IMG/VR virus record: IMGVR_UViG_3300008448_000056
Coordinates: 1-64,000 of that record
Direction: 5' to 3' (one strand)
Length of the DNA stretch: 64,000 nt
Source: a virus
The notes beneath the pieces were generated by a model. It had not been told where the DNA came from, did no database searches, and saw only the letters and a list, made by a program, of their open reading frames with translations. Below are positions 7,910-12,300 of this stretch, piece after piece (position 1 is the first letter of the stretch; each line of letters opens with the position of its first letter). The translations under genes were made by a program, and so were the position numbers.

Positions 7910-9757
7910 TTAAAAATTTATATCAGTATTAGGTATTTCTTTCCATATCTCCTGCATAGTATAATTTGTATCCTGTTTTAGCTTTTTCAATTTAGCATAA
8001 TCAGGGTCACAAGGCATATCTCCAGATGCCTCAACATACCTCTTTTTTGCCCAATTCAAAACTAATGGGAAATTGCCAAGTTTACCCCCAGTTCTTTTTC
8101 TTTTAAGCTTTTGTATGTATACATCAACGTCTGGACTATTTTTATCTTCATGAAACTTGGGTCTGTAATAAGATATGATTTGGTCTGATTTATTGGCCCA
8201 CATACTGCCCCCATGCAAATCGTAACTATCAGGAACGGGAAGTGAGCGGTCTTGGTTATACGTAGGATTTTTGGGGTGTGCAATAATACAATATACTATG
8301 TTATTTAACAAAGCAAATCGTTTGATATCTTTTAAAACCCAGCTCAAATATTGGTCATCGCGCTCATAAGCTTTTTGGGTTTTATCTAATTGATTGAATG
8401 GGTCAATCATAACACCATCAATACCCTTTTTCAGAATTAAATACCTAAACTTCTCATGTATAGATGCAATATCATGCTCATTCTCAGGATATACGTAGTA
8501 TATGTGCTCAGATATGAACTTGCAGGCTTCTGTATATTCTTCTACTGTCATCTTATCTAGCCACTTCCCAGCATACATCTCAACCAAGTCATCATAAAAG
8601 TCATTTGGAGGGTAGTTTTCAGGGGAAAATATGGCCCACTTCCACCCGTCCCAAATTGATTTGGTTAACATAAGCTGAAGCATAAAGAATGATTTGCCAT
8701 GATTACCATACCCTGTACATAAAGTAATATCACCCTTCTTCCATCTAAAATATTCATCCATTGAATCAAATCTGGTTGTAGGAGCCAATTGAACACCTTC
8801 CTTAAATGCTTCAAGCATATCAGGGAAAATCTGCTCTAAGTAATAAACACCATCTACTGGGATAGATGAAGAATTAAGTAATAAATTTATTACCTGTTCT
8901 TTTCCAAACTTCAACAATACTTCATTTAAGTCCTTACATCCTTCTGGGTATTCAACTACTCGGCATTTCTCAACACCAAGTCTTCTAACTAATTCATCTT
9001 TTAACTTTCTTCCCGCCTCATCACCATCTGCTGCAATAATAAATTCATCGATAGAAGAAAGCCATTCACTGCAATTATCAAGATACTCTAATTGTTGATT
9101 CCCTTTACTAGCTCCATTGGGAACTGATAGTATTGCCCAACGGCCAAGTTCGTGTTCTACCACTTCCCCATCATCATCGGCGACTGGTTCGTATTCTTTT
9201 GAAAATCCACATTCATATGCAGCAAGCATATCCCATTCACCTTCGGTTATGATTGCACAATGTCTGCCATTTAAAGTTTGCATACCGAAAAATATCAATT
9301 CAGCATCTTTGACTAGACGAAAGTTTTTTGCACCATCACGATACTTTGCATTTACAATTTCACCATCACGTATGTATGGGAACACAATGCATCTTTCTTT
9401 TTTCTGGGTTGCTGGCATCCATTCTTCACGACCATGTATAAAAAATTTTTTTAATGTTTCATGTGAAATACCTCGGCTTGTTGCGTAGGCAATAATTCGG
9501 TCGTTAAGTTCGATGCTTGACAGCATCGATTTATCGGGTCTCAAATATTTTTTGGCAGACTCTTTTCTTTCAAAAGTTTTGACGTTACCTTTCCAACCAC
9601 AATGATGGCAATTGTAAGTTCCCTCAGTCACATTAACGGATAAACAAGGGTCTTTTTTATTTCGGCGAGAATCTGAGCACTTTGGACAAACTGTTTTTTC
9701 TTGGCCACTACGGCGACGAATCTTAATCCCAAGTTTTGAGAGCTGGTTGTAGTACAT
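7910..9757 (-). CDS. T7 gp4/Twinkle-like primase-helicase
   Basis: 615 residues. A zinc finger (Cys24, Cys27, Cys50, Cys53 with HH between) begins the primase half. The Toprim domain shows ITEGEWD (about 169) and FIIAADGDEAG (about 244). The helicase half shows GYGNHGKS as Walker A (about 350), with MIDPFNQLD and IIAHPKN as later motifs of the DnaB/Twinkle ring helicase. It would unwind DNA and lay primers at the fork. The zinc finger normally sets the priming trinucleotide, which is relevant to the GGGAA enrichment. No DNA polymerase is visible in the window. Confidence 0.92.
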   Translation of the reverse strand: MYYNQLSKLGIKIRRRSGQEKTVCPKCSDSRRNKKDPCLSVNVTEGTYNCHHCGWKGNVKTFERKESAKKYLRPDKSMLSSIELNDRIIAYATSRGISHETLKKFFIHGREEWMPATQKKERCIVFPYIRDGEIVNAKYRDGAKNFRLVKDAELIFFGMQTLNGRHCAIITEGEWDMLAAYECGFSKEYEPVADDDGEVVEHELGRWAILSVPNGASKGNQQLEYLDNCSEWLSSIDEFIIAADGDEAGRKLKDELVRRLGVEKCRVVEYPEGCKDLNEVLLKFGKEQVINLLLNSSSIPVDGVYYLEQIFPDMLEAFKEGVQLAPTTRFDSMDEYFRWKKGDITLCTGYGNHGKSFFMLQLMLTKSIWDGWKWAIFSPENYPPNDFYDDLVEMYAGKWLDKMTVEEYTEACKFISEHIYYVYPENEHDIASIHEKFRYLILKKGIDGVMIDPFNQLDKTQKAYERDDQYLSWVLKDIKRFALLNNIVYCIIAHPKNPTYNQDRSLPVPDSYDLHGGSMWANKSDQIISYYRPKFHEDKNSPDVDVYIQKLKRKRTGGKLGNFPLVLNWAKKRYVEASGDMPCDPDYAKLKKLKQDTNYTMQEIWKEIPNTDINF

Positions 9758-9828: not shown

Positions 9829-10575
9829 TTACTTTTCATTTTGAGGCGAAATTTGGGCCGTTTCCGTGCGTCTGGTGCGATTGTGGTGCTCGGATTCAAC
9901 CTCAGAAAGCGGTCTGGCCACCAAAAAGTCTTTTTTGAAGTGCCAGCTGTTCATCTGCCCGGAAGTCAGGAGTTTGATTTCGCGTTCGTCAAGCGGCTGG
10001 CAGGTTTCATCCTCGAAAACTACAACCCCAAATTTTGGCAAAAAATAGTGTCCAAAATCTTTGGGTATGGGAAACCGTGGTTTGAGCTCCCGAAAAATCT
10101 CAACCTTTTCTTTTTCTTTTTTATTTATTTTTTCTTTTTCTTTTGGAGAATCCTTAGTTAGTACATTTCCTTTACTTTCCTTTACTTTCCTTTCCTTTAT
10201 AGCATTGCGGTCGCTCTCCGGTCGCAATGCGTTCGCATTCGACCACCTGTAAGACGCTGATTCCCTTGCTTTTACAGATTTGAAATTTCTCTCATCTAAT
10301 CGTCTTTTTACTGATTCCGAACCGAAAAAATTTCCCGAAATTTGGAACAAATCAAAATCCTGCACTACGCTCGCAACAATGTCGCATTGCGTTCGCAAAT
10401 CAAACGCAATGCCTTCGTAATCCGTTCGCAATGCGTTCGCATTATTGTATAAATCTTCGACAATTGACCAGTAAATTCCGTACCCAATCATGCCGTGTCG
10501 ACGTATCAAAATCTTGATTTTTTCGTCGTTTCTGGCGTTATAATCGTGGCTAAAATAGAAGGTTTGTTTTGCCAT
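9829..10575 (-). CDS. DUF4373-type replication-initiator-like protein
   Basis: 248 residues from the ATG encoding MAKQTF; a longer reading from 10623 is less likely. The N-terminus (FYFSHDYNARNDEKIKILIR then GMIGYGIYWSIVEDLYNN) is the Lin1244/DUF4373 domain, a winged-helix-like domain in phage replication proteins. A Lys/Glu-rich low-complexity linker follows and then a C-terminal part of unknown fold. It lies just upstream of the primase-helicase. NANALR occurs twice because the DNA iterons at 10202-10443 lie inside the gene. Role as origin binder is inference from domain, neighbours and iterons. Confidence 0.75.
   Translation of the reverse strand: MAKQTFYFSHDYNARNDEKIKILIRRHGMIGYGIYWSIVEDLYNNANALRTDYEGIAFDLRTQCDIVASVVQDFDLFQISGNFFGSESVKRRLDERNFKSVKARESASYRWSNANALRPESDRNAIKERKVKESKGNVLTKDSPKEKEKINKKEKEKVEIFRELKPRFPIPKDFGHYFLPKFGVVVFEDETCQPLDEREIKLLTSGQMNSWHFKKDFLVARPLSEVESEHHNRTRRTETAQISPQNEK
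10095..10200. other. AT-rich pyrimidine tract and short tandem repeats beside the iterons
   Basis: 10095-10145 is almost pure T/C with A on the plus strand. 10168-10198 contains tandem CTTTACTTTC / CTTTCCTTTA units. It codes for the Lys/Glu-rich linker of the initiator-like gene. Its position directly next to five iterons matches the DNA-unwinding element of lambda-type origins. Confidence 0.45.
10202..10443. repeat. Five iterons with 22-bp phasing inside the initiator-like gene; candidate origin
   Basis: Units beginning GCAWTGC start at 10202, 10224, 10384, 10406 and 10428. Spacing within each group is exactly 22 bp (two helical turns). The 16-mer GCAATGCGTTCGCATT is exact at 10224 and 10428; the others are GCATTGCGGTCGCT, GCATTGCGTTCGCA and GCAATGCCTTCGTA. 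Twenty-two is not a multiple of 3, so adjacent copies fall in different reading frames and the repetition is a property of the DNA, not the protein. Confidence 0.75.
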
Positions 10576-10973: not shown

Positions 10974-11384
10974 TTACCAGTTTTTAGTTATACCTAATTT
11001 AAATCCAAACCTCATATTCGTATTTTTTTCAATCATACACCCAATGGTTGCCATACCATCTAGATAATAAATAGTCATTTCATAATCTTCTTTATTCTTG
11101 TCTACTAGTTTATATACTACAGTTACAACTCCAGTATCCTTAGTTGGACAGTTTGTTTTATACAAAATAGGGAATTCGGTATCATTAATGTATAAGGAAT
11201 TGTTGTATTCGTAAAAAAATATTTTTTCTGAAATAGTATTAACTAATTTTAAATTTTCAAACACATTTATTGTTTCAAAATAAGCTACATTCTTTTTAGG
11301 AGTTTGAATAGCAGATAAAAACTGCGCATCTAAGTTTAGATGAATAATGATGATTGCGCAAATTGATAAGATTACTTTTTTCAT
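10974..11384 (-). CDS. Exported protein with signal peptide, unknown
   Basis: 136 residues. MKKVILSICAIIIIHLNLDA then Q is a typical Bacteroidota signal peptide (Lys-Lys, hydrophobic core, A-Q cleavage). The mature part is beta-rich, with two Cys (CPTK, IGCMI) that might form a disulphide. A secreted product in an early operon suggests action in the periplasm or outer envelope, perhaps altering the surface against superinfection; that role is speculation. Confidence 0.6.
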   Translation of the reverse strand: MKKVILSICAIIIIHLNLDAQFLSAIQTPKKNVAYFETINVFENLKLVNTISEKIFFYEYNNSLYINDTEFPILYKTNCPTKDTGVVTVVYKLVDKNKEDYEMTIYYLDGMATIGCMIEKNTNMRFGFKLGITKNW

Positions 11385-12075: not shown

Positions 12076-12300
12076 ATGAGCATCGAAGCAACAATGACAA
12101 TTGACGTAACTCCTACAGAAGAGGAAAAAGTTTGGGTAAAAGCATTAGCGTCTGGCGAAAAAGCTGGAGCAATCGCAGAGAAGCTTGGGATGAACCGCAA
12201 TACGTTCGCATACCATTTGCGTTTTTTGCGTGCTAAATTTCAATGCAAAAACACAAACCAGCTTATTTCATATTTTTTACGAAATAATCTGATTGACTAA
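12076..12300 (+). CDS. Small LuxR/GerE-type helix-turn-helix regulator
   Basis: 74 residues. PTEEEKVWVKALASGEKAGA followed by IAEKLGMNRNTFAYHLRFLR has the GerE/sigma-region-4 pattern, with no receiver or ligand domain. It would bind DNA through MNRNTFAYH. It lies between the leftward early operon and the rightward late genes, so a switch role is plausible but not shown. Its stop precedes the next open frame directly. Confidence 0.7.
   Translation: MSIEATMTIDVTPTEEEKVWVKALASGEKAGAIAEKLGMNRNTFAYHLRFLRAKFQCKNTNQLISYFLRNNLID

Follow-up and report, generated by a model that had tools for sequence, protein, structure and literature searches.

A candidate replication origin of 11-bp iterons and a 5-bp purine array inside the initiator gene of a Lin1244_N phage

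Origins located within initiator genes

Some phages carry their origin of replication inside the gene of the protein that initiates replication. ORF13 of TP901-1 and Rep2009 of the lactococcal phage Tuc2009 bind to repeat-rich regions in their own genes, and these regions are the origins according to PMC8965321 (citing McGrath 1999 and Ostergaard 2001). The Tuc2009 rep record bears the annotation 'contains origin of replication'; this annotation and the later summary are the basis on which the Tuc2009 origin is used here for comparison. In lambda, ori is located in gene O, with the iterons inside the initiator gene and a helicase-loading gene next to it. The lambda iterons are followed by an AT-rich tract. 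Iteron plasmids also contain directly repeated, helix-phased initiator sites beside an AT-rich region, but their iterons usually measure ~17-22 bp and lie outside the rep coding sequence.

The DNA analysed here, referred to as the window, covers positions 1-64000 of a virus record that is 70,567 bp long. One of its genes encodes a putative replication initiator and contains two clusters of 11-bp iterons and a 5-bp array (Table 1). Like Tuc2009 Rep2009 (orf16), it has the repeats inside the initiator gene and 11-bp iterons directly before a 5-bp array. With lambda it shares the iterons within the initiator gene, the AT-rich tract that follows them and the neighbouring gene concerned with the helicase, and with the iteron plasmids the helix-phased direct repeats beside AT-rich DNA; unlike the plasmid iterons, the units are 11 bp long and lie in the coding sequence. 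The region is very probably a phage origin of the lambda/Tuc2009 type inside the gene of its own initiator. Binding, melting and the start of replication are inferred from sequence features, namely the two iteron clusters together with the 5-bp array, their conservation at the DNA level across phyla and their fixed order.

The initiator gene and its surroundings

The protein consists of a winged-helix N-domain of the Lin1244_N type (PF14297, formerly DUF4373), a disordered linker and a small C-terminal domain. Its match to the Pfam profile (E 3.8e-10, 40.8 bits against a cut-off of 25) makes it a member of the Lin1244_N/DUF4373 phage replication initiators, for which a score above the curated cut-off is decisive, and PHROG 2562, 'replication initiation protein', matches it with E 2.6e-19. 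The gene had been called initiator-like from its sequence alone, and both matches bear this out. In the AlphaFold2 model the N-domain (pLDDT >90) displays helices 53-60 and 64-73 and a beta hairpin 78-85, a winged-helix arrangement. Linker residues 125-174 score mostly below 50; the linker, with the end of iteron cluster B and the pentamer codons, is probably disordered, as far as a model of such low confidence can tell. Sequence and fold searches of the PDB with the initiator protein gave no significant match, and the weak ones were largely winged-helix regulators. The phage initiator protein shows no AAA+ domain.

The next gene downstream, on the same strand, encodes a primase-helicase, as the sequence-only reading had stated; a helicase or helicase-loader gene adjacent to the initiator gene is thereby present. 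This enzyme is likely the helicase that is loaded at the origin. An isolated, near-perfect iteron word (GCAATACGTTCGCA, one mismatch) is found at 12197-12210 inside a small LuxR-type HTH gene (12076-12300). At ~1.8 kb from the arrays it might be a distal site or a chance occurrence.

Table 1. Features of the candidate origin and adjacent genes (window coordinates)
Feature	Position	Strand	Remarks
Primase-helicase (Toprim + DnaB_C)	7910-9757	minus	Pfam DnaB_C 1.9e-7, Toprim_2 2.1e-7; PHROG 239 E 1.3e-89
Initiator gene, 248 aa	9829-10575	minus	ATG at 10575, stop ends at 9829
Iteron cluster A, ~7 head-to-tail 11-bp units (AATGCGAACGC and variants)	10367-10443	minus	N-domain codons 45-70
Units of cluster A (coding strand)	10433-10443, 10422-10432, 10411-10421, 10400-10410, 10389-10399, 10378-10388, 10367-10377		later ones degenerate
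Iteron cluster B, three 11-bp units and a final AATGC core (~4 units), NANALRPESDRNAI	10196-10239	minus	linker
Units of cluster B	10229-10239, 10218-10228, 10207-10217		core AATGC 10202-10206
Pentamer array AAAGG AAAGG AAAGT AAAGG AAAGT AAAGG AAATG	10164-10198	minus	5-bp purine repeat
Second A-rich purine tract (KEKEKINKKEKEK)	10104-10144	minus	AT 0.77-0.80, coding-strand purine 0.77-0.83; probably extends the AT-rich melting zone, role uncertain

Iterons, pentamers and the AT-rich zone

The unit of the iterons is an 11-bp tandem word, AATGCGAACGC on the coding strand. The sequence-only reading had listed five words, starting at 10202, 10224, 10384, 10406 and 10428, with a spacing of 22 bp. 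All five are present at these positions, but the true period is 11 bp; a 22-bp unit is rejected, as 22 bp corresponds to every second unit. A search with mismatches for GCAWTGCGTTCGCA yielded 20 matches in the window, a number reached in none of 100 dinucleotide shuffles (5.55 +/- 2.46 matches), and half of the 20 fall in 10202-10441.

The pentamer array begins 3 bp past the last iteron core AATGC. The AT-rich pyrimidine tract with short tandem repeats, previously noted beside the iterons, does adjoin them; since the gene is encoded by the minus strand, the coding strand carries it as a purine tract, and its first part proved to be a second array with a 5-bp period. From 10096 to 10185 the AT content is 0.70-0.80 with a strong purine bias, which provides an AT-rich region beside the iterons. 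The role of the second A-rich tract remains uncertain because no clear synonymous constraint is seen there.

Selection acts on the DNA

The self-similarity of the gene at each lag was compared with that of synonymous-codon shuffles in which amino acids and codon usage were kept fixed. The lag-11 and lag-22 scores of the window gene were reached in 0 of 2000 shuffles and the lag-5 score in 1 of 2000. Its top z of 7.3 was the best of 50 window ORFs (the next reached 2.3), ORFs of at least 120 codons being compared. The iterons of cluster A gave z values of 6.8 at lag 22 and 4.5 at lag 11, the pentamers 5.7 at lag 5 and 6.6 at lag 10. When only the linker was shuffled, cluster B stood out with z 3.8 at lag 11 and 3.5 at lag 22. 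The same test recovers the annotated iterons of lambda ori (lags 20, 23 and 24), which served as a positive control.

Synonymous divergence among 71 close relatives amounts to ~0.7-1.8 of the expected value over most of the gene. It drops exactly at the arrays: to 0.15-0.37 at codons 47-53 in cluster A and to 0.10-0.31 at codons 116-134, where cluster B accounts for 0.14-0.31 and the pentamer array for 0.10-0.29. The 71 relatives do not represent independent samples, and a module exchanged recently could look conserved as well. The earlier claim that selection acts on the DNA is supported by two findings: codon choice makes the DNA period stronger than the amino acids alone demand, and synonymous divergence collapses at the arrays. 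The gene thus contains repeated helix-phased sites within the initiator coding sequence that are under DNA-level constraint.

These data bear on the possibility that the periodicity is merely a by-product of protein repeats of 11 and 5 residues in a basic flexible linker, or of replication slippage. The encoded peptides do look repetitive, since three 11-mers specify the 11 residues NANAMRTQCER and three pentamers the 5 residues KERKG. Protein repeats cannot, however, explain a signal that is lost in synonymous shuffles although the amino acids are kept, nor do they account for the strongly lowered synonymous divergence at the arrays; moreover, the iterons in the N-domain lie in what is predicted to be a folded domain and not in the linker. 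Neither period is a multiple of 3. Slippage in steps of 11 or 5 bp would shift the reading frame, and steps of 33 or 15 bp would not yield 11- and 5-bp periods. A by-product of this kind is therefore extremely unlikely.

The pattern among homologues

The survey included 174 homologous Lin1244_N genes, of which 77 remained after clustering below 70% identity; they came from IMG/VR contigs, from genomes mainly of Bacteroidota and Bacillota (phages and prophages) and from named phages. The mean z over the 77 homologues was 3.3, 3.1, 1.6, 1.5 and 1.3 at lags 5, 10, 15, 20 and 25, and 2.5, 1.8, 1.2 and 0.5 at lags 11, 22, 33 and 44, whereas every other lag gave ~0 to 0.6. In 136 control ORFs from the same loci the mean z was near 0 at every lag. 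Up to ~4% of the controls per lag exceed z > 2, so that single weak cases should not be over-read. Both signals remain when shuffling is confined to the linkers of the homologues. Both arrays were found in 39 homologues, only the 11-bp array in 10, only the 5-bp array in 19 and neither in 9. When the 9 homologues without arrays were searched for arrays relocated outside the gene, the only stretches found were close to a single gene (L139), and one of these was low-complexity A/G.

The order of the two arrays is invariant: in all 23 linkers in which both pass, the iterons precede the pentamers. Of the 47 homologues in which the distance from the last AATGC-type core to the first pentamer was measured, 19 have a gap of 3 nt and 4 a gap of 4 nt; in the remainder the gap is scattered, partly because the last iteron carries a different word. 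The iteron words vary by lineage (AATGCGAACGC, GCAATGCAAAC, ATAGCAATGCT, AATCGCCACCC, TTCAACCACAG, ATAACACTGTT), while spacing and order persist. The pentamers follow the profile A.90, A.91, A.95, G.66 and, at the fifth position, G.42, T.31 or A.25. Translated over 33 and 15 nt, such repeats encode tandem 11-aa (KAMAMPTETDS) or 5-aa (KESKV) peptides. It had been predicted that the iteron spacing should persist while the encoded linker varies; this is what is seen, in that the lag 11/22/33 series is retained across 77 diverse homologues with differing iteron words and peptides.

The genes downstream of the homologues encode DnaB_C helicases in 15 and IstB/DnaC-like ATPases in 6 of 55 cases. pCT01, a circular phage-like plasmid of 36.6 kb, possesses the arrays in canonical form, and its annotation lists no second replication initiator; as regards autonomous replication from such a layout, this is only circumstantial.

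Comparison with Tuc2009, lambda and bacterial origins

Applied to Tuc2009 rep, the lag test revealed 11-bp CAACCA iterons followed by GGATA-type 5-bp repeats. Among relatives of the Tuc2009 Rep protein in IMG/VR (22 clusters), lag 11 and lag 10 each stand out in 21 and lag 5 in 19. The words differ from those of the window gene (CAACCA against AATGC for the iterons, GGATA/AGAAT against AAAGG for the pentamers), as do the hosts. The Tuc2009 protein belongs to Rep_Org_C (PF06926) and has no match to PF14297, whereas the window protein matches PF14297 and not PF06926; hence two families without detectable homology share the layout. By analogy, the window protein may work like the Tuc2009-type replisome organisers; membership in that group is not shown. 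The layout is not universal, as neither TP901-1 rep (L187:3748-4566) nor A118 gp49 (L258:5609-6541), both DnaD-like initiators, displays the 11/5 periods. The linker of A118 gp49 contains an 8/16-bp repeat (AAGAATTA), which is perhaps another origin grammar.

The region had been likened to the lambda origin. The general design holds, but lambda iterons are spaced by ~20-23 bp and are not accompanied by a 5-bp array, which was not found in lambda ori (lag 5 z 1.1), so that Tuc2009 rep is the closer match. The lambda protein is unrelated to the window initiator, and lambda uses the host DnaB. Membership in the lambda O family was considered and rejected: an 11-bp period and a PF14297 protein stand against the ~20-23-bp spacing and the O-type protein.

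The repeats might serve as operator sites through which the initiator regulates its own gene or operon, rather than as an origin. A predicted winged-helix protein can repress its own gene, and plasmid iteron arrays often double as origin and operator. However, the arrays are situated within the coding sequence, where 132 and 336 nt separate them from the start codon, and the iterons are followed in fixed order by an AT-rich pentamer array. Furthermore, the matching layout of Tuc2009 sits in a gene region reported as the origin. We regard an operator without origin function as very unlikely.

A related proposal separates the purine pentamers from an origin that would consist of iterons only, and has them act in the mRNA as Shine-Dalgarno-like sequences, by ribosome pausing or in translational control. 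AAGGA resembles the Shine-Dalgarno core, and the tract is contained in the mRNA because it lies on the coding strand. Yet the Tuc2009-type pentamers AGAAT, AGTAT and AGAAG are not Shine-Dalgarno-like and still keep the 5-bp period, and the tract often keeps a constant distance to the last iteron. We know of no role of a 5-nt period in translation. A function confined to the mRNA is thus scarcely to be expected, and the interpretation of both arrays as parts of an origin is preferred.

In bacterial oriC, double-strand sites (DnaA boxes) likewise lie near a short-period array in the melting zone, represented by the DnaA-trios and the DnaD recognition element (DRE) TnnT, but that array has a period of 3 compared with 5 in the phages. 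TnnT is the motif bound as single strand by DnaD of B. subtilis (PMC10201434). On the complementary strand, AAANN pentamers yield a TnnT every 5 nt; since some Tuc2009-type pentamers (GGTAA) lack TnnT, the link to the DRE is no more than a lead.

Proposed mode of initiation

At the inferred origin, the N-domain would bind each 11-bp site. As 11 bp are about one helical turn, the protomers would sit along the same side of the double helix in a compact array, which would strain the neighbouring AT-rich tract. The pentamer tract would then open as the melting and loading zone, and the initiator or a helicase loader would keep one of its strands in register, with each protein contact taking one pentamer. 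At the opened tract the phage primase-helicase would be loaded.

GC skew does not contribute to the localization of the origin. Over the 70,567-bp record the cumulative skew reaches its lowest point at 11,139, and the skew tracks gene direction, with a switch of the genes near 12.0 kb; for pCT01 and EF62phi, detrending puts the minimum ~3 kb from the initiator gene. Confounded by gene direction, these values are uninformative. The 70,567-bp record showed no exact terminal repeat.

The suggestion that such an origin may be undescribed for this phage group agrees with the open literature searched, which contained no description of an origin of this kind for the Lin1244_N/DUF4373 family. In this literature DUF4373 appeared in two papers only, judged by title in connection with iron metabolism and not with replication, and Lin1244 was not mentioned. 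Targeted searches of titles and abstracts disclosed no description of the 5-bp array; the subscription literature, including the original Tuc2009 paper, was outside the scope, so that the pentamers may have been mentioned before. The intragenic iteron origin is a known kind, and the pentamer rule seems to be undescribed.

In a more far-reaching hypothesis, which we advance only tentatively, phage initiator families without detectable homology share an origin grammar of 11-bp iterons, a short gap and a 5-nt single-strand recognition repeat, the phage counterpart of the DnaA-trios and the DRE. The basic 5-aa (KESKV, KERKG) and 11-aa repeats of many phage replication proteins would be its translation.

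With the sequence rule, candidate origins can be located in many uncultivated phages and prophages, and odd low-complexity linkers of phage replication proteins are explained as translated origin DNA. With a 5-bp element beside the iterons, the melting step becomes directly testable.

Further members of the family

A few genes deserve separate mention. On a plasmid of Paenibacillus cellulosilyticus, the Lin1244_N gene (L184:2229-3069) is annotated as two pieces, its frame being broken in the pentamer tract, and an intact relative resides on another contig of this organism (L180). A Lin1244-like protein of a Vibrio phage (L020:2995-3753) has TCATGACTCAG repeats and, behind them, pentamers of the GATAA type (peptide DKIRLDKNRIEEN); the pattern may thus reach into the phages of gammaproteobacteria. 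Two Bacteroides plasmids (L185, L186) encode a divergent Lin1244_N subfamily (MKKDQYFNLEVN) in which purines recur with a 5-bp period and the strongest lags include no 11-bp iterons; one of the two genes is followed by a bifunctional primase/helicase.
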